Part shown: positions 8,660 through 15,163 of the stretch, in pieces
How the letters are laid out: the number at the start of each line of letters is the position of its first letter
Position numbering within the stretch: the first letter of the stretch is position 1
DNA from: Cupriavidus taiwanensis LMG 19424
Lineage (GTDB): Bacteria; Pseudomonadota; Gammaproteobacteria; Burkholderiales; Burkholderiaceae
NCBI RefSeq assembly: GCF_000069785.1
Contig: NC_010528.1
Location: forward strand, 1,116,001 to 1,180,000
Direction of reading: 5' to 3'
Length of the DNA: 64,000 nucleotides
The notes under the pieces: model-generated
Told to the model about the DNA's origin: nothing
Database searches by the model: none
Seen by the model: the letters and a program-made list of their open reading frames with translations, nothing else
Position numbers and translations under genes: made by a program

Positions 8660-9547
8660 TCAGCGGTTGGCGCGGTTCATGAACACCAGGCGCTCGAACA
8701 GGTGCACGTCCTGCTCGTTCTTCAGCAGCGCGCCATGCAGCGGCGGGATCGCGGCCTTCTTGTCCGGGCTCTTCAGCGCCTCGGGCGGGATGTCCTCGGC
8801 CATCAGCAGCTTGAGCCAGTCGATCAGCTCGGACGTCGACGGCTTCTTCTTCAGGCCCGGCAGGTTGCGCATCTCGTAGAACGATTCCAGCGCGGCGGCA
8901 ACCAGCTCGCGCTTGATGCCGGGGTAGTGCACGTCGACGATCTGCTGCATCGTCTCGGCATCGGGGAACTTGATGTAGTGGAAGAAGCAGCGGCGCAGGA
9001 AGGCGTCGGGCAACTCCTTCTCGTTGTTCGAGGTGATGATCACCAGCGGCCGGTGCTTCGCCTTGACCAGCTCGCGGGTCTCGTAGACATAGAACTCCAT
9101 GCGGTCGAGTTCGCGCAGCAGGTCGTTGGGGAATTCGATGTCGGCCTTGTCGATCTCGTCGATCAGCAGCACCACCTGCTGGTCGGCCTCGAAGGCCTGC
9201 CACAGCACGCCCTTGACGATGTAGTTGCGGATGTCGTGGACGCGGTCGTCGCCCAGCTGCGAATCGCGCAGGCGCGACACGGCGTCGTATTCGTACAGGC
9301 CCTGCTGTGCCTTGGTGGTCGACTTGATATGCCATTGCAGCAGCGGCATGCCCAGCGCGGCGGCGACTTCCTCGGCCAGCATGGTCTTGCCGGTGCCGGG
9401 CTCACCCTTGATCAGCAGGGGGCGCTGCAGCGTGCGCGCGGCATTGACGGCCAGCTTGAGGTCGTCGGTGGCAACATACTGGTCGCTGCCTTCGAAGCGG
9501 ACCGGCTGGGAGGAGGCTTGGGCGGAAGCGTTGGCGGTGTTTGACAT
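8660..9547 (-). CDS. MoxR-family AAA+ ATPase
   Basis: A 295-residue AAA+ ATPase. Walker A GEPGTGKT is at residues 48-55 and Walker B LLIDEIDKAD near 127-136. Sensor 1 is ITSNNEKELPDAFLRRC, which also holds the arginine finger region. The short form without an extra domain and the wording FEGSDQYVATDDLKLAVNAA are typical of the MoxR/CoxD-like group. MoxR ATPases act with VWA-domain partners in assembly of protein complexes or metal cofactors; the CoxE-like VWA gene is two genes downstream. It is the first gene of the minus-strand cluster, with a 540-base gap upstream that also carries the 6S RNA candidate on the other strand. Confidence 0.92.
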   Translation of the reverse strand: MSNTANASAQASSQPVRFEGSDQYVATDDLKLAVNAARTLQRPLLIKGEPGTGKTMLAEEVAAALGMPLLQWHIKSTTKAQQGLYEYDAVSRLRDSQLGDDRVHDIRNYIVKGVLWQAFEADQQVVLLIDEIDKADIEFPNDLLRELDRMEFYVYETRELVKAKHRPLVIITSNNEKELPDAFLRRCFFHYIKFPDAETMQQIVDVHYPGIKRELVAAALESFYEMRNLPGLKKKPSTSELIDWLKLLMAEDIPPEALKSPDKKAAIPPLHGALLKNEQDVHLFERLVFMNRANR

Positions 9548-9811
9548 GAGGCAACCTGAGGTGGCGGCCGCTCGCGGACGAGGGCCGGGTTGGCGTGCTG
9601 GGCGCGGTCTCTTCGCGCTGTGACGCGCGCTTTCGTTATGGAAACAGGGTCCGTGACGGGCGCCCGCTTGCCGCTGGCGCAGCGTACGCGAACGGTCGTG
9701 CGGATTCCCGGAATGGGCCAGTATAAAAGACCTTTGCGGTTCGTGTTGGGGCCCGCTGACAGGGTTCCGCCGGCGCCGACCGCTGGCTGGACTGGCAGGT
9801 GCCGGCTGCGG

Positions 9812-9817
9812 TACAAT
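9812..9817 (+). promoter_or_regulatory. Candidate -10 box upstream of the 6S RNA / cytochrome genes
   Basis: TACAAT lies in a CG-rich context about 50 bases before the predicted RNA stem. A TTGACG sequence at 9826-9831 could be a -35 for a start nearer the stem, but its spacing to any -10 is too long to be convincing. Confidence 0.35.
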
Positions 9818-9867
9818 GCGGCGGTTTGACGCGCCCCCACGTCCAGTTCTCCAGTATCCGGCAGTCC

Positions 9868-10033
9868 GCGTTCAGAAGTCCCTGCGGCCCTTCCGGGTCG
9901 CGGCGATTGCGCGAGGTGGTTCCAGAATGGTGTTCCACTCCCCGGCAAACCGACCGGATGCGACATCTCTGGCGGGTTGCACCCCGGCCAACCAACTGGC
10001 TGCCCGGTTGCTCCGCAGAAGCATTCTGAAACC
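9868..10033 (+). ncRNA. ssrS: Probable 6S RNA
   Basis: A region of about 165 bases folds by hand into the 6S architecture. The closing stem pairs TTCAGAA (9871-9877) and CTGCGG (9882-9887) with CCGCAG (10013-10018) and TTCTGAA (10024-10030). Inner helices are CCGGG with CCCGG, then AGGTGGTT with AACCAACT (7 of 8 pairs). A central bubble follows, containing AGAATGGTGTTCC on the 5' side and TGCGACATC on the 3' side, with a small CGGGT/ACCCCG hairpin in the 3' strand of the bubble. The bubble segments resemble Escherichia coli 6S (AGAAUGUGGCGCUCC and CUGCGACGACA). 6S RNA sequesters the sigma-70 RNA polymerase holoenzyme in stationary phase. Ends are estimates; it lies just before two cytochrome genes. 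Confidence 0.7.
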
Positions 10034-10086
10034 GTCTCCGCCCGGCAGGGCAGGTCACACGGTTTAACTTCCAATCCGCAAAGACA

Positions 10087-10434
10087 ATGAAAAAGCTCCT
10101 CACGATGGTGGTGCTGGGCGCGGCTGCAACGGCCGTGCAGGCACAGGAAGTCAAGGGCAATGGAGACGCTGCCAAGGACAAGGTTGCAATGTGCATCGGA
10201 TGCCATGGCATTCCGGGCTACCGTGCGTCCTTCCCCGAGATCTATGAAGTGCCGCTGCTGGGCGGCCAGAGCGCCAAGTACATCGAGAACGCGCTGAAGG
10301 CCTACCAGAAGGGCGAGCGCAAGCACCCCACCATGCGCAGCATCGCCGCGACGCTGACCGAGCAGGACATCGCCAACGTGGCGGCCTACTACTCGCAGCA
10401 GAACGCCGGCACGCAGAACAATTCCCTCAAGTAA
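10087..10434 (+). CDS. Monoheme c-type cytochrome (class I, c4/c553-like)
   Basis: A 115-residue exported cytochrome c. A signal peptide (MKKLLTMVVLGAAATAVQAQ) is followed by the mature protein with one heme motif, MCIGCHGIPGY, where CxxCH binds heme covalently. The distal methionine is probably in HPTMRSIAATL, and the C-terminal helix IANVAAYYSQQ is typical. It should carry electrons in the periplasm. A second monoheme cytochrome follows after 10 bases, so the two probably form a pair like the two halves of a diheme cytochrome c4. The ATG at 10087 matches the signal peptide. The long upstream stretch holds the 6S RNA candidate. Confidence 0.93.
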   Translation: MKKLLTMVVLGAAATAVQAQEVKGNGDAAKDKVAMCIGCHGIPGYRASFPEIYEVPLLGGQSAKYIENALKAYQKGERKHPTMRSIAATLTEQDIANVAAYYSQQNAGTQNNSLK

Positions 10435-10444
10435 GAGACCCCAC

Positions 10445-10843
10445 ATGAAGACGCTCAAGACGCTTTCGTTCGCGCTCGGCGCACTCGTGCTGGGTGCTGC
10501 CGCCATGCCGGCCTCGGCCGCCGACCTTGCCAACGGCAAGACGCTGGTGGAAAAGGGCAACTGCGTGGCCTGCCATGGCGCCGGCATGAACAAGCCGATC
10601 TCGCCCGACTACCCCAAGCTGGCCGGCCAGCATGCCGACTACCTGTACCACGCGCTGATGTCCTACCAGGTGTCGGGCAATGCGCTGGTGGGCCGTTCCA
10701 ACGCGATCATGGCCGGCCAGGTCAACGCCAATCCGGCGGTCACCGACAAGGATGGCAAGCCGCGCCCGTTCACGCGCAAGGAACTGAAGGACATGGCCGC
10801 CTACATCGAGTCGCTGCCGGGCGACCTGGTGCTGAAGAAGTAA
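10445..10843 (+). CDS. Monoheme c-type cytochrome (c553-like)
   Basis: A 132-residue periplasmic cytochrome. The signal peptide ends at MPASAAD; the heme site is NCVACHGAGMNKPI, and the region SNAIMAGQV probably provides the axial methionine. LKDMAAYIESLPGDL is the usual C-terminal helix. It starts 10 bases after the preceding cytochrome gene, with an AAGAGA-type ribosome binding site inside the gap, and the pair ends at a strong intrinsic terminator at 10872-10903. The two resemble each other in the DYLYHALMSYQ / KYIENALKAYQ and C-terminal segments, suggesting duplication. The redox partner is unknown. Confidence 0.93.
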   Translation: MKTLKTLSFALGALVLGAAAMPASAADLANGKTLVEKGNCVACHGAGMNKPISPDYPKLAGQHADYLYHALMSYQVSGNALVGRSNAIMAGQVNANPAVTDKDGKPRPFTRKELKDMAAYIESLPGDLVLKK

Positions 10844-10871
10844 TGGCCGGCGGCGCCCGCCGCCTGCACGC

Positions 10872-10903
10872 AAAAAGCCGCTTCGCTGGAAGCGGCTTTT
10901 TTT
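10872..10903 (+). terminator. Intrinsic terminator after the cytochrome pair
   Basis: AGCCGCTTC, loop GCTG, GAAGCGGCT, then seven T residues, with an A-run on the left side. The hairpin is perfect and could also work for the convergent aroG transcript, which ends about 67 bases further right. Confidence 0.9.
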
Positions 10904-10969
10904 CGTCCGCGGCGGGGCTCAGGCCGGCCGCAGCCGGTGCGCCAACGCCGTCGACCCTTCAGTGTTGCT

Positions 10970-12049
10970 TCAGTTGCCGCTGCCCGACACGAGTCGGCGC
11001 TGGCGCACCGACTCGGCCAGGCCCTCGAGCACCTTGACCGAGTCGTCCCAGCCGATGCACGCATCGGTGACGGACTGGCCATAGGTCAGCTCGTCGACCG
11101 GCTGGCCCTGCACGTGGTCCTGGCGCCCGGCCACCAGGTGCGATTCGACCATCACGCCGATGATGCGCTGGTCGCCGGCGGCAATCTGGCGGCCGATGTC
11201 GGCGCACACCGGGATCTGGTTCTCATGCTTCTTGCTGCTGTTGGCATGCGAGGCGTCGATCATCAGGCGCGAGGCCAGGCCGGCCTTGGCGATGGCGTCG
11301 CACGCTTCCTGCACGCTGGCGGCGTCGTAGTTGGGCGCCTTGCCGCCGCGCAGGATCACGTGGCAGTCCTCGTTGCCCGAGGTCGACACGATCGCCGAAT
11401 GCCCGCCCTTGGTCACCGACAGGAAATGGTGCGGCTGCGACGCGGCCTTGATCGCGTCGACCGCGATCTTGACGTTGCCGTCGGTGCCGTTCTTGAACCC
11501 GACCGGGCACGACAGTCCCGATGCCAGCTCGCGGTGCACCTGCGACTCGGTGGTGCGCGCGCCGATCGCGCCCCAGCTGACCAGGTCGGCGATGTATTGC
11601 GGGCTGATCATGTCGAGGTACTCGGTGCCGGTCGGCACGCCCATTTCGCTGATGGTCAGCAGCAGCTCGCGCGCGGTGCGCAGGCCGTCATTGATCTTGA
11701 AGCTGCCGTCCATGTGCGGGTCGTTGATCAGGCCCTTCCAGCCCACGGTGGTGCGCGGCTTCTCGAAGTACACCCGCATCACCACCTCCAGCTCGCCGGC
11801 GAAGCGCTCGCGCTGGACCTTGAGCAGCTTGGCGTATTCCAGCGCGGCGCGGGTATCGTGGATCGAGCAGGGTCCGATGATGACGATCAGACGGTCATCC
11901 ATGCCGTGCAGGATGCGGTGCATGGCCTGGCGCGCGCCGTAGATCACGTCCGAAGCCTGTTCGGAGCAGCCAAACTCGCGGATCAGGTGCGCGGGCGGCA
12001 GCAGCTCCTTGAGTTCACGGATGCGCAGGTCGTCGGTGTTCTTCAGCAT
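10970..12049 (-). CDS. aroG: 3-deoxy-7-phosphoheptulonate (DAHP) synthase, class I
   Basis: A 359-residue cytoplasmic enzyme that condenses phosphoenolpyruvate and erythrose-4-phosphate, the first step of aromatic amino-acid synthesis. Family motifs include IIGPCSIHD near residue 55-63 (metal-binding cysteine), MRVYFEKPRTTVGWKGLINDP, GTEYLDMISPQY, SWGAIGARTTESQ, FKNGTDG and the C-terminal TDACIGWD. The ATG at 12047-12049 fits the family start and has GGAGCC-like pairing just before it; the open frame upstream runs back through the terminator hairpin and is not coding. The leader upstream encodes a Phe/Tyr-rich peptide and a terminator/antiterminator, so expression is probably set by charged tRNA-Phe and tRNA-Tyr. 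Which amino acid inhibits the enzyme itself cannot be read here. Confidence 0.95.
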   Translation of the reverse strand: MLKNTDDLRIRELKELLPPAHLIREFGCSEQASDVIYGARQAMHRILHGMDDRLIVIIGPCSIHDTRAALEYAKLLKVQRERFAGELEVVMRVYFEKPRTTVGWKGLINDPHMDGSFKINDGLRTARELLLTISEMGVPTGTEYLDMISPQYIADLVSWGAIGARTTESQVHRELASGLSCPVGFKNGTDGNVKIAVDAIKAASQPHHFLSVTKGGHSAIVSTSGNEDCHVILRGGKAPNYDAASVQEACDAIAKAGLASRLMIDASHANSSKKHENQIPVCADIGRQIAAGDQRIIGVMVESHLVAGRQDHVQGQPVDELTYGQSVTDACIGWDDSVKVLEGLAESVRQRRLVSGSGN

Positions 12050-12103
12050 GATGGCTCCAGGATTCTTGTGAGGTCGTGAGAGTGTGGGAAAACAAACGGG
12101 TAT

Positions 12104-12129
12104 AAAAAAACCGCCAGGGTCGCTGGCGG
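12104..12129 (-). terminator. Attenuator terminator in the aroG leader
   Basis: Read on the minus strand, CCGCCAGCG (12129-12121), a short loop, CTGGCGG (12117-12111) and seven U residues (12110-12104) make an intrinsic terminator about 55 bases before the aroG start codon. No gene lies upstream on this strand except the leader peptide, so it terminates the leader transcript. Confidence 0.85.
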
Positions 12130-12153
12130 TCTTTTTTGTATTCGGGGCGCTGC

Positions 12154-12225
12154 TTACAGCCATCCCTCCCTATCCGCCAGCGGTGTGAGATCGCCAAAAA
12201 AGTAAAAGTAAAACTTAGCGGACAT
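12154..12225 (-). CDS. aroG leader peptide, Phe/Tyr-rich (attenuator)
   Basis: A 23-codon reading frame, too short for routine gene calling, with ATG at 12225-12223 and TAA at 12156-12154. Codons 5-10 read Phe-Tyr-Phe-Tyr-Phe-Phe, and a Trp codon is next to last. Codons 15-18 contain CGCTGGCGG, exactly complementary to the left arm (CCGCCAGCG) of the downstream terminator. A ribosome stalled on the Phe/Tyr codons would therefore leave this segment free to form an antiterminator. One that reaches the stop codon would cover it and let the terminator form. No clear Shine-Dalgarno precedes the ATG. A 53-codon frame that starts near the predicted transcript start ends 10 bases inside this one, so translational coupling is possible. 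Confidence 0.8.
   Translation of the reverse strand: MSAKFYFYFFGDLTPLADREGWL
12174..12182 (-). promoter_or_regulatory. Antiterminator arm of the aroG attenuator
   Basis: Minus-strand CGCTGGCGG inside the leader peptide gene is a perfect 9-base complement of CCGCCAGCG at 12129-12121. This gives the alternative helix (segment 2 with 3) that excludes the terminator helix (3 with 4). Confidence 0.8.
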
Positions 12226-12377
12226 GGCGGAAAAAGGCGTTGGCTTGGGTCAGCTTGAAACGATTTTCTTCGCGGGCGCTGGATTTATGCTGCACTGCGT
12301 GGCAGAAAGGCAGGAAATTGCGCGCCGCTTCGATAATTTTCGTTGCGCATTGGCTGCTGGCCGCGCGACGAAGCATC

Positions 12378-12406
12378 TTTATAGCGCCTTTTGCCGGGGT
12401 TGGCAA
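12378..12406 (-). promoter_or_regulatory. Sigma-70 promoter of the aroG leader
   Basis: On the minus strand, TTGCCA (12406-12401) and TATAAA (12383-12378) are separated by exactly 17 bases. Transcription should start near 12371, giving a leader of about 320 bases that contains the Phe/Tyr peptide and the attenuator. Confidence 0.75.
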
Positions 12407-12562
12407 GTGTCGACGCAGTCATGCCGTGCGCTGGCGCACCAACGCGGCTAACCGTCCGGCGCCGCCTTGCCGGCCGGGTCCTGCGGGCCGCATTCAGGCT
12501 TTTCCTGTTATAGCCCGGGGCTATATTGAAAGCGGGGAGCAGTGCGCACGGGGAGGTGCATC

Positions 12563-13618
12563 ATGAGCGTCGATGAAGCGAGGCTGAATGCCTTCATGGA
12601 AAAATTCGTCGGCGATATCGGCGCGGTGATGCATGCCGCGACCGTGGTCGTCGGCGATGAACTGGGCCTGTACAAGGCGCTGGCGGAAAAGCCGATGACT
12701 GTCGCCATGCTGGCGGCCAAGACCCATACCGACGAGCGCTACCTGCGCGAATGGCTGTCGGCGCAGGCGGCCAGCGGCTACGTCGACTATGACGCTAGTT
12801 CGGCGCAGTTCAGCCTGAACGAAGAACAGGCCTTTGCGCTGGCACAGGAAGGCAGCCCGGCCTTTATCCCGGGCGCGTTCCAGATCGCCGTGGCGCAGTT
12901 CCGCGCGATTCCCAAAATGATCGATATCTTCCGCAATGGCCGCGGCCTGGGCTGGCACGAGCACGATCCCGCGCTGTTCCACGGCACCGAACGCTTCTTC
13001 CGGCCCGGCTATGCGGCGCACCTTGTGTCGGAATGGATTCCGGCGCTGGCAGGCATGGCGGCGCGGCTGGAGGCGGGGGCCATGGTGGCGGACGTAGGCT
13101 GCGGCCATGGCGCCTCGACCATCATCATGGCGCAGGCGTTTCCCGCGTCGCGCTTCGTCGGCTTCGACTACCATGAGCCCTCGGTGCGCCATGCGGCCGA
13201 GGCCGCGCGCCGCGCCGGCGTGGCCGAGCGCGTGCGCTTCGAGGTGGCCAGCGCCAAGGACTATGGCGGCAAGGACTATGACCTGGTGGCGGTGTTCGAC
13301 TGCCTGCACGACATGGGCGATCCCGTGGGCGCGGCGCGCCATGTGCGAGAGACCCTGCGCGCCGACGGCGCCTGGATGATCGTCGAGCCCTTTGCCAACG
13401 ATGCGCTGGAGCAGAACCTGAATCCGGTAGGCCGGGTGTTCTACTCCGCGTCGACCTTCATCTGCACGCCGGCATCGCGCTCGCAGGAAGTCGGCCTGTG
13501 CCTGGGCGCACAGGCGGGCGAGGCGCGCATGCGTGCGGTGGCGGAGCAGGCAGGCTTCCGCAGCTTCCGCCGCGCGGCGCAGACGCCGTTCAATCTGGTG
13601 TATGAAGTGCGGCCGTAA
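12563..13618 (+). CDS. Class I SAM-dependent methyltransferase with winged-helix N-terminus
   Basis: A 351-residue protein. Residues 1-90 form a winged-helix dimerisation domain like those of O-methyltransferases (LYKALAEKPMTVAMLAAKTHTDERYLREWL). The catalytic Rossmann domain carries SAM motif I, VADVGCGHGASTIIMA, near residue 176; motif II with VGFDYHEPSV; and AVFDCLHDMGDP as motif IV. The C-terminal part has a conserved FICTPASRSQEVGLCLGAQAGEARM stretch seen in related methyltransferases of unknown function. The ATG at 12563 is chosen because GGGAGG lies 6 bases before it; an upstream in-frame start lacks this. It stands alone, so the substrate is unknown. Confidence 0.87.
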   Translation: MSVDEARLNAFMEKFVGDIGAVMHAATVVVGDELGLYKALAEKPMTVAMLAAKTHTDERYLREWLSAQAASGYVDYDASSAQFSLNEEQAFALAQEGSPAFIPGAFQIAVAQFRAIPKMIDIFRNGRGLGWHEHDPALFHGTERFFRPGYAAHLVSEWIPALAGMAARLEAGAMVADVGCGHGASTIIMAQAFPASRFVGFDYHEPSVRHAAEAARRAGVAERVRFEVASAKDYGGKDYDLVAVFDCLHDMGDPVGAARHVRETLRADGAWMIVEPFANDALEQNLNPVGRVFYSASTFICTPASRSQEVGLCLGAQAGEARMRAVAEQAGFRSFRRAAQTPFNLVYEVRP

Positions 13619-13647
13619 GGGTGTGGCCGTCCGGGATGCTGATTGCG

Positions 13648-13680
13648 TGCTCCCTCTCCCGCACGCTGGAGAGGGGAGCA
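13648..13680. repeat. CCCTCTCC-type hairpin (dispersed repeat copy 2)
   Basis: TGCTCCCTCTCC and GGAGAGGGGAGCA pair around an 8-base spacer with one bulge. It sits between the convergent methyltransferase and tldD genes and matches the core of the hairpins at 2779 and 37827. Confidence 0.6.
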
Positions 13681-13702
13681 AACCCCCTGTCAGACAGCGG
13701 CC

Positions 13703-15163
13703 TCAGGCCGTCCCGCCCACCGTCATATTCTCGATGCGCAGCGTCGGCTGGCCCACGCCCACCGGCACGCTCTGGCCTTCCTTGCCGCACACGCCCACGC
13801 CCGAATCCAGCCGCATGTCGTTGCCGATCATGGTCACGTCCTTGAGCGATTCCGGGCCGTTGCCGACCAGGGTCGCGCCCTTGACCGGGTAGGTGATCTT
13901 GCCGTCCTCGATCATATAGGCCTCGCTCGCCGAGAACACGAACTTGCCGTTGGTGATGTCGACCTGGCCGCCGCCAAAGTTGACCGCATACAGGCCCTTC
14001 TTGACGCTGGCGATGATTTCCTGCGGGTCCTTGTCGCCGTTGAGCATGTAGGTGTTGGTCATGCGCGGCATCGGCAGCGCGGCATAGCTTTCGCGGCGCG
14101 CGTTGCCGGTGACCGGCATCTTCATCAGGCGCGCGTTGAGCGTGTCCTGGATATAGCCGCGCAGGATGCCGTCCTCGATCAGCGTTGTGCACTGGGTCGG
14201 GTTGCCTTCATCGTCCAGGTTGAGCGAGCCGCGGCGGTTGGCCAGCGTGCCGTCGTCTACCACGGTCACGCCCCTGGCCGCGACGCGCTCGCCCATGCGG
14301 CCGGCAAACGCCGACGAGCCCTTGCGGTTGAAGTCGCCTTCCAGCCCGTGGCCGACCGCCTCGTGCAGCAGCACGCCGGGCCAGCCGGGGCCCAGCACCA
14401 CGGTCATCGCGCCGGCCGGGGCCGGGCGCGCATCCAGGTTGACCAGCGCCGACGACACCGCCTCGTCCACGTACTGCTGCAGCAGCGCATCGGTGAAATA
14501 GCCGTAGGCATAGCGGCCGCCGCCGCCGGACGAGCCGATCTCGCGGCGCCCGCCCTGTTCGGCGATCACCGTGACCGAGACCCGCACCAGCGGGCGCACG
14601 TCGGCGGCGATCACGCCGTCGCTGCGCGCTACCAGCACCACGTCGTACTCGCCCGCCAGGCCCGCCATGACCTGCACCACGCGCGGATCCTTGGCGCGCG
14701 CCATGCGCTCGATGCGCTCGAGCAGCGCCACCTTTTCCGCCGCGCTCATCGAGTCGAGCGGGTCGTTGGGCGAGTACAGGTTGCGCCCCGCTTGCGTGGC
14801 CAGCTCGCCGGCGACCTTGATACGGCCGCTGCCGGCCTTGCCGATGGTGCGCGTGGCGGCTGCCGCCTGCGACAGCGCGGGCAGGCTGATTTCATCCGAG
14901 TAGGCGAAGGCGGTGCGGTCGCCCGAGACCGCGCGCACGCCCACGCCCTGGTCGATGCTGAAGCTGCCCGACTTGACGATGCCTTCTTCCAGGCTCCAGG
15001 CCTCGTTGCGGGTGTACTGGAAGTACAGGTCGGCGTAGTCGACCTTGTGCGTGAAGATATCGGCCAGCACGCGCTGGAGCCTGGCTTCGTCCAGGCCGTA
15101 CGGCGCCAGCAGCAGTTGCTGCGCGGTGGCCAGGTTGCGGATTCCGAGATCGCCGGCGTTCAT
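13703..15163 (-). CDS. tldD: Metalloprotease TldD
   Basis: A 486-residue subunit of the TldD/TldE zinc protease, which processes modified peptides such as microcin B17 in Escherichia coli and the CcdA antitoxin. The zinc-binding [12 protein letters not shown] motif lies near residue 266, followed by [18 protein letters not shown] and the C-terminal [20 protein letters not shown] characteristic of TldD. Its partner TldE (PmbA) is not in this window. An AAAGGA-type ribosome binding site precedes the ATG at 15161-15163. It is the last gene of a minus-strand set yhdP - nitrilase - tldD, an order I recall as conserved in betaproteobacteria. Confidence 0.95.

Follow-up and report, generated by a model that had tools for sequence, protein, structure and literature searches.

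A conserved aromatic leader frame and terminator precede aroG in Cupriavidus taiwanensis and other Burkholderiales, suggesting probable control of DAHP synthase by transcription attenuation

The window, i.e. the whole stretch of 64,000 nucleotides of Cupriavidus taiwanensis LMG 19424 analysed here (contig NC_010528.1, positions 1,116,001 to 1,180,000), contains on its minus strand the aroG gene, preceded by a promoter, a short leader frame and an intrinsic terminator (Table 1). These features had been described in an earlier note made from the DNA letters, and direct reading of the sequence bore out the description: the promoter is present on the minus strand, the 23-codon frame carries its six consecutive Phe and Tyr codons, and the terminator, with a stem of 10 pairs and a U-tract ending 54 bases upstream of the aroG AUG, lies shortly before the gene. 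In addition, the segment CGCTGGCGG within the leader frame is indeed a perfect 9-base complement of CCGCCAGCG in the 5′-arm of the terminator. A methyltransferase-like gene (12542-13618, plus strand) is located between tldD and aroG and is divergent from the latter; its product matches NCBIfam models solely far below their cut-offs.

Table 1. Features of the aroG upstream region (positions are those of the window).
Feature	Position	Strand	Basis
Promoter: TTGCCA (12406-12401), 17-base spacer, TATAAA (12383-12378)	12378..12406	minus	Sequence and alignment with relatives
Leader peptide frame MSAKFYFYFFGDLTPLADREGWL, 23 codons plus TAA; ATG at 12225, TAA ending at 12154	12154..12225	minus	
Regulatory codons 5-10, Phe-Tyr-Phe-Tyr-Phe-Phe	12196..12213	minus	Sequence and homologous codon counts
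Region 2, antiterminator 5′ strand CGCTGGCGG, within codons 15-18	12174..12182	minus	
Region 3, antiterminator 3′ strand CCGCCAGCG, overlapping the terminator 5′ arm	12121..12129	minus	
Intrinsic terminator AGACCGCCAG - CGACC - CTGGCGGTTT, U-tract 12110-12104	12104..12132	minus	
Shine-Dalgarno sequence of aroG, GGAG	12055..12058	minus	
aroG, type I 3-deoxy-7-phosphoheptulonate (DAHP) synthase; ATG at 12049	10970..12049	minus	NCBIfam NF006723 and TIGR00034, over cut-off

Among the 725 small frames of the window (8-60 codons, both strands), the aroG leader is the only one with at least six Phe, Tyr or Trp residues in seven, and a chance origin of the frame was therefore rejected; one unrelated small frame reaches five in seven. 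Leaders for other amino acids (His, Trp, Thr, Ile/Val, Leu, Met, Cys, Pro) combined with a terminator were not found in the window. A strict promoter scan called no promoter in the region before aroG, since it requires the second hexamer to end in T. However, in an alignment of the window with the loci L001-L013 of the Cupriavidus/Ralstonia type, in which L006 is truncated and uninformative, TATAAAG is found in 13/13 informative rows and CTTGCCA in 10/13, the variants being CTTGCAA (L007), CTTGCAG (L012) and CTTGCGG (L013). A CATAAAT box closer to the leader in some Cupriavidus was also considered as promoter and dropped, because the TTGCCA/TATAAAG pair is better conserved.

Two peculiarities of the region concern its annotation. 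The hairpin at 12110-12133 also scores as a plus-strand terminator, because its flanks are A- and T-runs. Moreover, an in-frame ATG at 12163 (minus strand), located inside the attenuator, opens a frame of 397 residues that extends to 10970, so that gene callers may provide AroG with a false N-terminus of 38 residues. A similar start-site artefact may underlie the '43 AA unique N-terminal region' described for AroG2 of R. solanacearum (PMC6379268), and annotated aroG starts should be treated with caution, as they may be placed too far upstream.

The arrangement is conserved among relatives. We gathered 80 loci by means of the AroG protein, which are the best 80 of at least 587 and hence represent close relatives. 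An aromatic leader frame together with an intrinsic terminator precedes aroG in 79 of them; the sole exception, L074 from a metagenome bin, contains neither. The loss of the Phe and Tyr codons in close relatives, which the earlier note had named as speaking against its reading, thus did not occur, and the retention of leader and terminator in these loci and far beyond the genus supports its proposal that attenuation is applied to DAHP synthase. The leader type FYFYFF(W)xLxPLADREG is common to Cupriavidus, Burkholderia, Paraburkholderia, Caballeronia and Trinickia, R. pickettii encodes FFYFYFWHLAPLAEGEG, Bordetella and Achromobacter encode FYFYFYGFLKPLAEEG, and Undibacterium encodes FYFHFYFSYSNPKAVEKR, variants of which are present in Herminiimonas and Massilia. 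Altogether, the element was found in Cupriavidus, Ralstonia, Burkholderia, Paraburkholderia, Pandoraea, Bordetella, Achromobacter, Massilia and other genera. In Caballeronia megalochromosomata (L037) and Candidatus Burkholderia humilis (L041) the leader is frame-shifted past the aromatic run, and in the latter the shifted frame continues across the terminator, which looks like decay of the switch in this symbiont.

To describe the distribution within the order we used a covariance model of leader and terminator, termed R1, which was built from 37 sequences. At E up to 0.01 it matched 123/399 genomes, many of the weak matches being terminator-only, while 101 full-length matches were obtained in 99/399 genomes. 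With one exception (G460:C28), the 63 full-length matches with listed aroG coordinates lie 32-148 bases before aroG, and in all of the 30 best loci aroG adjoins the match and an aromatic leader is present. Within the C. taiwanensis genome, R1 matches other than the aroG element were terminator-only. As negative controls served 39 aroG upstream regions with listed coordinates from genomes of the order that gave no full-length match: 35 of them contain neither leader nor terminator, two (L166, L171) show a weaker aromatic frame and no terminator, and two (L147, L148) do have a leader and a CCGCC/GGCGG hairpin. In the sample of the class, the element was present at 2/29 aroG loci (L082 and L094 of L082-L110), and 6/274 genomes matched R1 at E up to 0.001, three of them within the order, two (G012 and G165) in one outside family and one (G038) in another family. 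The G038 match (G038:C174:1121-1217) is full-length (E 4.6e-5) and lies on a contig that differs from that of the listed aroG. In the family of G165, which belongs to another order, R1 matched 12/40 genomes at E up to 0.01, eight of these matches being full-length at E below 1e-7, and all seven loci fetched (L189, L191-L196) contain an aromatic leader before aroG, of the FYFWYY type or reading FYRWYYF (L191) or FYWYYF (L196). Outside the order, the attenuator was thus found in a minority of the genomes of this family.

The pairing between leader and terminator is likewise retained. The 113 leader sequences collected correspond to 102 distinct ones, and 101 of these contain the core GGYGG:CCGYC, which is missing in L137 and is otherwise kept though the codons that carry it differ by group (PLAD, RR, AAGG or AVE). 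When each leader was recoded into 300 synonymous versions, with third positions weighted to 85% G or C as a fixed assumption, the native duplex was stronger than the recoding mean in 101/102 cases (median Z -2.25), though it ranked within the best 5% of recodings for 44/102 leaders only. The compensatory changes in the 9-base helix for which the earlier note had asked are rare. Among the 102 leaders the outer pairs vary and a few double changes occur (two A-U pairs in L061, a C-G pair in L126, and C-G in L125 and L129), whereas in alignment A1, comprising 37 sequences, no pair of the helix was changed on both sides, covariation did not exceed that of shuffled alignments, and the 94.8% of antiterminator cells that are paired were no more than in shuffles. 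For the terminator, 99.7% of the cells in A1 are paired, and two of its pairs show changes in both strands, amounting to 12 cells.

The geometry of the element fits a switch operated by a ribosome. From the last aromatic codon to the pairing core the distance is 11 bases in the median (range 7-21), and about 11 bases is roughly the reach of a stalled ribosome. In the window, folding of the RNA downstream of a ribosome held at the last aromatic codon, with the sequence cut before the 3′-arm of the terminator, yields the antiterminator; the stretch so folded has -26.4 kcal/mol, and the isolated terminator hairpin -15.3 kcal/mol. Once the 3′-arm is added, the RNA of the window folds into the terminator instead, which implies a kinetic switch in which the antiterminator has to form first; in 5 of the 23 loci displayed (L016, L032, L037, L041, L048) the antiterminator wins even in the presence of this arm. 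In 100/101 leaders 5-27 bases separate the end of the core from the stop codon, the exception being the frame-shifted leader of the symbiont L041 with 88 bases, and a ribosome resting at the stop codon would therefore cover region 2 only partly. A 1:2 protector hairpin, the structure expected of an untranslated leader, is favoured in 56 leaders of the Burkholderiaceae type (median Z -1.69) and not in the other 45 (group medians -0.25, 0.48 and 0.49). Pairing and spacing together show that the antiterminator is exclusive with the terminator and spaced for release by stalling on the regulatory codons.

We conclude, with a probability of roughly 0.9, that aroG is controlled by a ribosome-mediated transcription attenuator. 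The computations establish the anatomy, conservation and geometry of the element and the mutual exclusivity of the two structures, while translation of the leader, the site at which transcription starts and the response to amino-acid supply are inferred. Transcription would begin downstream of TATAAA, and a ribosome would translate the 23-codon leader. With ample charged tRNA-Phe and tRNA-Tyr, the ribosome would run into and past codons 15-18 and block the antiterminator, upon which RNA polymerase would halt at the terminator ending at 12104. During aromatic shortage the ribosome would stall within codons 5-10 with its leading edge just before codons 15-18, so that CGCTGGCGG could pair with CCGCCAGCG, pre-empt the terminator and permit transcription of aroG. 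Where relatives have Trp codons in the leader as well, the level of each of the three end products would probably be sensed. The attenuator before aroG is real and widely conserved, and it is of a known mechanistic kind.

Which amino acids are read is less certain. In the block before region 2, Phe and Tyr are present in 102/102 distinct leaders and Trp in 51/102, although this is no independent test, since the frames had been chosen by aromatic content. We therefore relied on 73 leaders chosen by their tail P-x-[AV]-[DE], in which the six codons at a fixed distance upstream of the tail were counted; a count on 50 leaders chosen by FYFYF[FY] was discarded, as this pattern fixes the residues by construction. 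In the tail-chosen set the six homologous positions are Phe, Tyr or Trp in 428/438 cells. Tyr occupies its two positions in 62 and 64 of the 73 leaders, with TAC/TAT at 28/34 and 43/21, so both codons are used; the Phe positions vary between TTT and TTC, and exchanges between Phe and Tyr also occur. Such silent changes, with the aromatic residues kept, point to translation of the leader. As a further peculiarity of codon choice, TTT accounts for 353/425 Phe codons of the leader block versus 88/629 in the portions of aroG taken from these loci, a preference that could raise the sensitivity to tRNA-Phe charging or avoid structure.

The attenuator seems to act on the sole entry enzyme of aromatic synthesis: the AroG search of the C. 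taiwanensis genome returned a single match, and the type II DAHP synthase family (PF01474) none. In this light we tentatively propose, as a possibility rather than an expectation, that one leader peptide reads the charging of tRNA-Phe and tRNA-Tyr together, and that of tRNA-Trp too in half of the distinct leaders, that lack of any one of the aromatic end products opens the single aroG, and that the leader starts without a Shine-Dalgarno sequence, on a nearly leaderless transcript in loci of the Bordetella/Achromobacter type. If so, one RNA switch would do the job of the three isozymes and the repressors TyrR and TrpR of E. coli. However, multi-amino-acid sensing, including the dual sensor for Phe and Tyr suggested in the earlier note, is a prediction only, because Tyr was without effect on the C. 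glutamicum aroR leader, a close precedent. There, according to the available excerpts of PMC11802643, limitation of Phe raised transcription and supply of Tyr had no effect, which is in line with a second, somewhat doubtful explanation, namely that the attenuator is real and senses phenylalanine alone, the Tyr and Trp codons being passengers. Phe is also the commonest residue of the leader block (425 Phe versus 239 Tyr and 52 Trp), and the published Ralstonia fusions were tested for their response with Phe only. Sensing of Phe alone is at odds with the presence of Tyr in every leader and with its retention at the two Tyr positions through both codons; in addition, it would leave a shortage of Tyr or Trp unread, as no second DAHP synthase was found in the genome.

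In R. solanacearum, deletion of aroG2 raised the expression of aroG1-lacZ from 47 to 702 Miller units, and deletion of aroG1 raised that of aroG2-lacZ from 49 to 1072 (PMC6379268, Table 2). In the deletion strains 1 mM Phe lowered these values 2-3-fold (702 to 316 for aroG1-lacZ and 1072 to 353 for aroG2-lacZ), whereas the wild-type fusions were little changed (47 to 40 and 49 to 41); the data refer to rich medium (PMC6379268), and the main text of that study mentions neither attenuation nor a leader or terminator. These data fit attenuation without being specific for it: a response was seen with either aroG fusion, but in R. pickettii the leader is located only before the 87% ortholog and not before the 58% paralog. 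In all, a second aroG copy (57-59% identical) was seen in three genomes (L186, L187, L188), with no aromatic leader or terminator upstream; L186 and L188 come from two genomes other than that of R. pickettii.

Besides its action in cis, the terminated leader RNA or the leader peptide might act in trans, as is reported for the leader peptide peTrpL of Sinorhizobium (excerpts of PMC7298713). The conservation of the peptide beyond the aromatic codons, with tails of the PLADREG type, would fit such a role. However, the residues of the tail differ from group to group although the GGYGG core is retained, and the pairing of the antiterminator explains the conserved tail, so that we regard a function in trans as improbable.

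The start of the leader frame differs from that of aroG. In the window and 79 further loci, 55/80 leader AUG codons, including that of the window, lack a Shine-Dalgarno match of at least 3 bases, 22/80 have a match of 3 bases and 3/80 one of 4-5 bases; in contrast, 78/80 aroG AUG codons are preceded by a match of at least 4 bases. Enterobacterial pheL and trpL leaders do have the Shine-Dalgarno sequence that is absent before the aroG leader; its presence before an attenuator leader is usual and not defining. In 10/102 leaders, from Bordetella, Achromobacter and similar loci, TGTGCTAGAGT is located 7-8 bases before the leader AUG, and judging from this position their transcripts look nearly leaderless.

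The lack of a Shine-Dalgarno sequence, together with the 152 bases that separate TATAAA from the leader AUG in the window, could suggest that a ligand- or protein-binding RNA switch governs the terminator and that the small frame is untranslated. We consider this very improbable, since within the alignment of the window with L001-L013 the 152-base stretch is conserved neither in length nor in sequence, the silent third-position changes point to translation, and no Rfam family matched at gathering score. This holds for window positions 9000-15000, searched at E up to 5, and for six homologous loci; a known Rfam leader, T-box or riboswitch family was rejected on these grounds. The element is touched by a single Rfam match, STnc350, which lies on the opposite (plus) strand at 12071-12140 and scores 22.6 bits versus a gathering score of 60 (E 0.94).

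The hairpin could also merely terminate the upstream gene, the leader frame being incidental, and tldD is indeed located upstream on the same strand in 68/80 loci. In the window, however, the gene upstream points away from aroG, which leaves the terminator without another gene on which to act. Promoter, leader and hairpin persist where the methyltransferase-like gene precedes (the window and seven Cupriavidus-type loci of the 80, L001-L005, L007 and L008), the aromatic codons are conserved as well, and in 79/80 loci the hairpin is accompanied by the leader. For these reasons we rejected this explanation as the least probable of all.

If ribosome-mediated attenuation holds true, it would give many Burkholderiales a defined regulatory mechanism for the first step of aromatic biosynthesis and could explain the strong derepression of the aroG fusions reported in Ralstonia. 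It could also show metabolic engineers of Cupriavidus exactly which element to delete when aromatic compounds are to be produced. Moreover, it could allow a direct test of whether one leader reads two or three amino acids.

A survey of attenuators in proteobacteria is said to have been made by Vitreschak et al. 2004, and the original work on C. glutamicum aroR is reportedly that of Neshat et al. 2014, the C. glutamicum attenuators studied there being said to be leaderless. Among the literature matches listed, none describes an aroG attenuator of Burkholderiales by its title or the start of its abstract. Likewise, the available excerpts of a broad attenuator screen (PMC2965389), a regulon survey (PMC5343134), a motif survey (PMC2864571) and a start-site map of B. 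cenocepacia (PMC4603805) contain no mention of it.

The principle of attenuation is not new, and C. glutamicum aroR is a close precedent: as described in excerpts of PMC11802643, PMC4046766 and PMC7356990, a Phe-Tyr-Phe leader precedes the DAHP synthase gene aroF, and transcription increases upon Phe limitation. Compared by description and not by sequence, aroR differs from the aroG element in its phylum and in its shorter aromatic run. The enterobacterial pheA, pheST and trp attenuators (pheL, trpL) follow the same logic, dependent on charged tRNA and exerted via a leader peptide (excerpts of PMC11802643), but they control genes of branch enzymes or tRNA synthetases with one amino acid per leader. 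In Acholeplasma, the uORFC-13-1 motif is a proposed Phe-coding upstream frame with an intrinsic terminator before aroF; it belongs to another phylum, and the excerpt of PMC8632094 speaks of 'at least one phenylalanine' and does not mention Tyr. Putative attenuators were also predicted upstream of the operon of the Tyr-type DAHP synthase and tyrA in Vibrio (Merino database; PMC1173090, Table 7, seen as an excerpt), which is a different operon in a different lineage. Measured against these systems, what appears to be new is the aroG target in this group, together with the predicted mixed reading of Phe, Tyr and, in part, Trp codons and a putative leader start that lacks a Shine-Dalgarno sequence.
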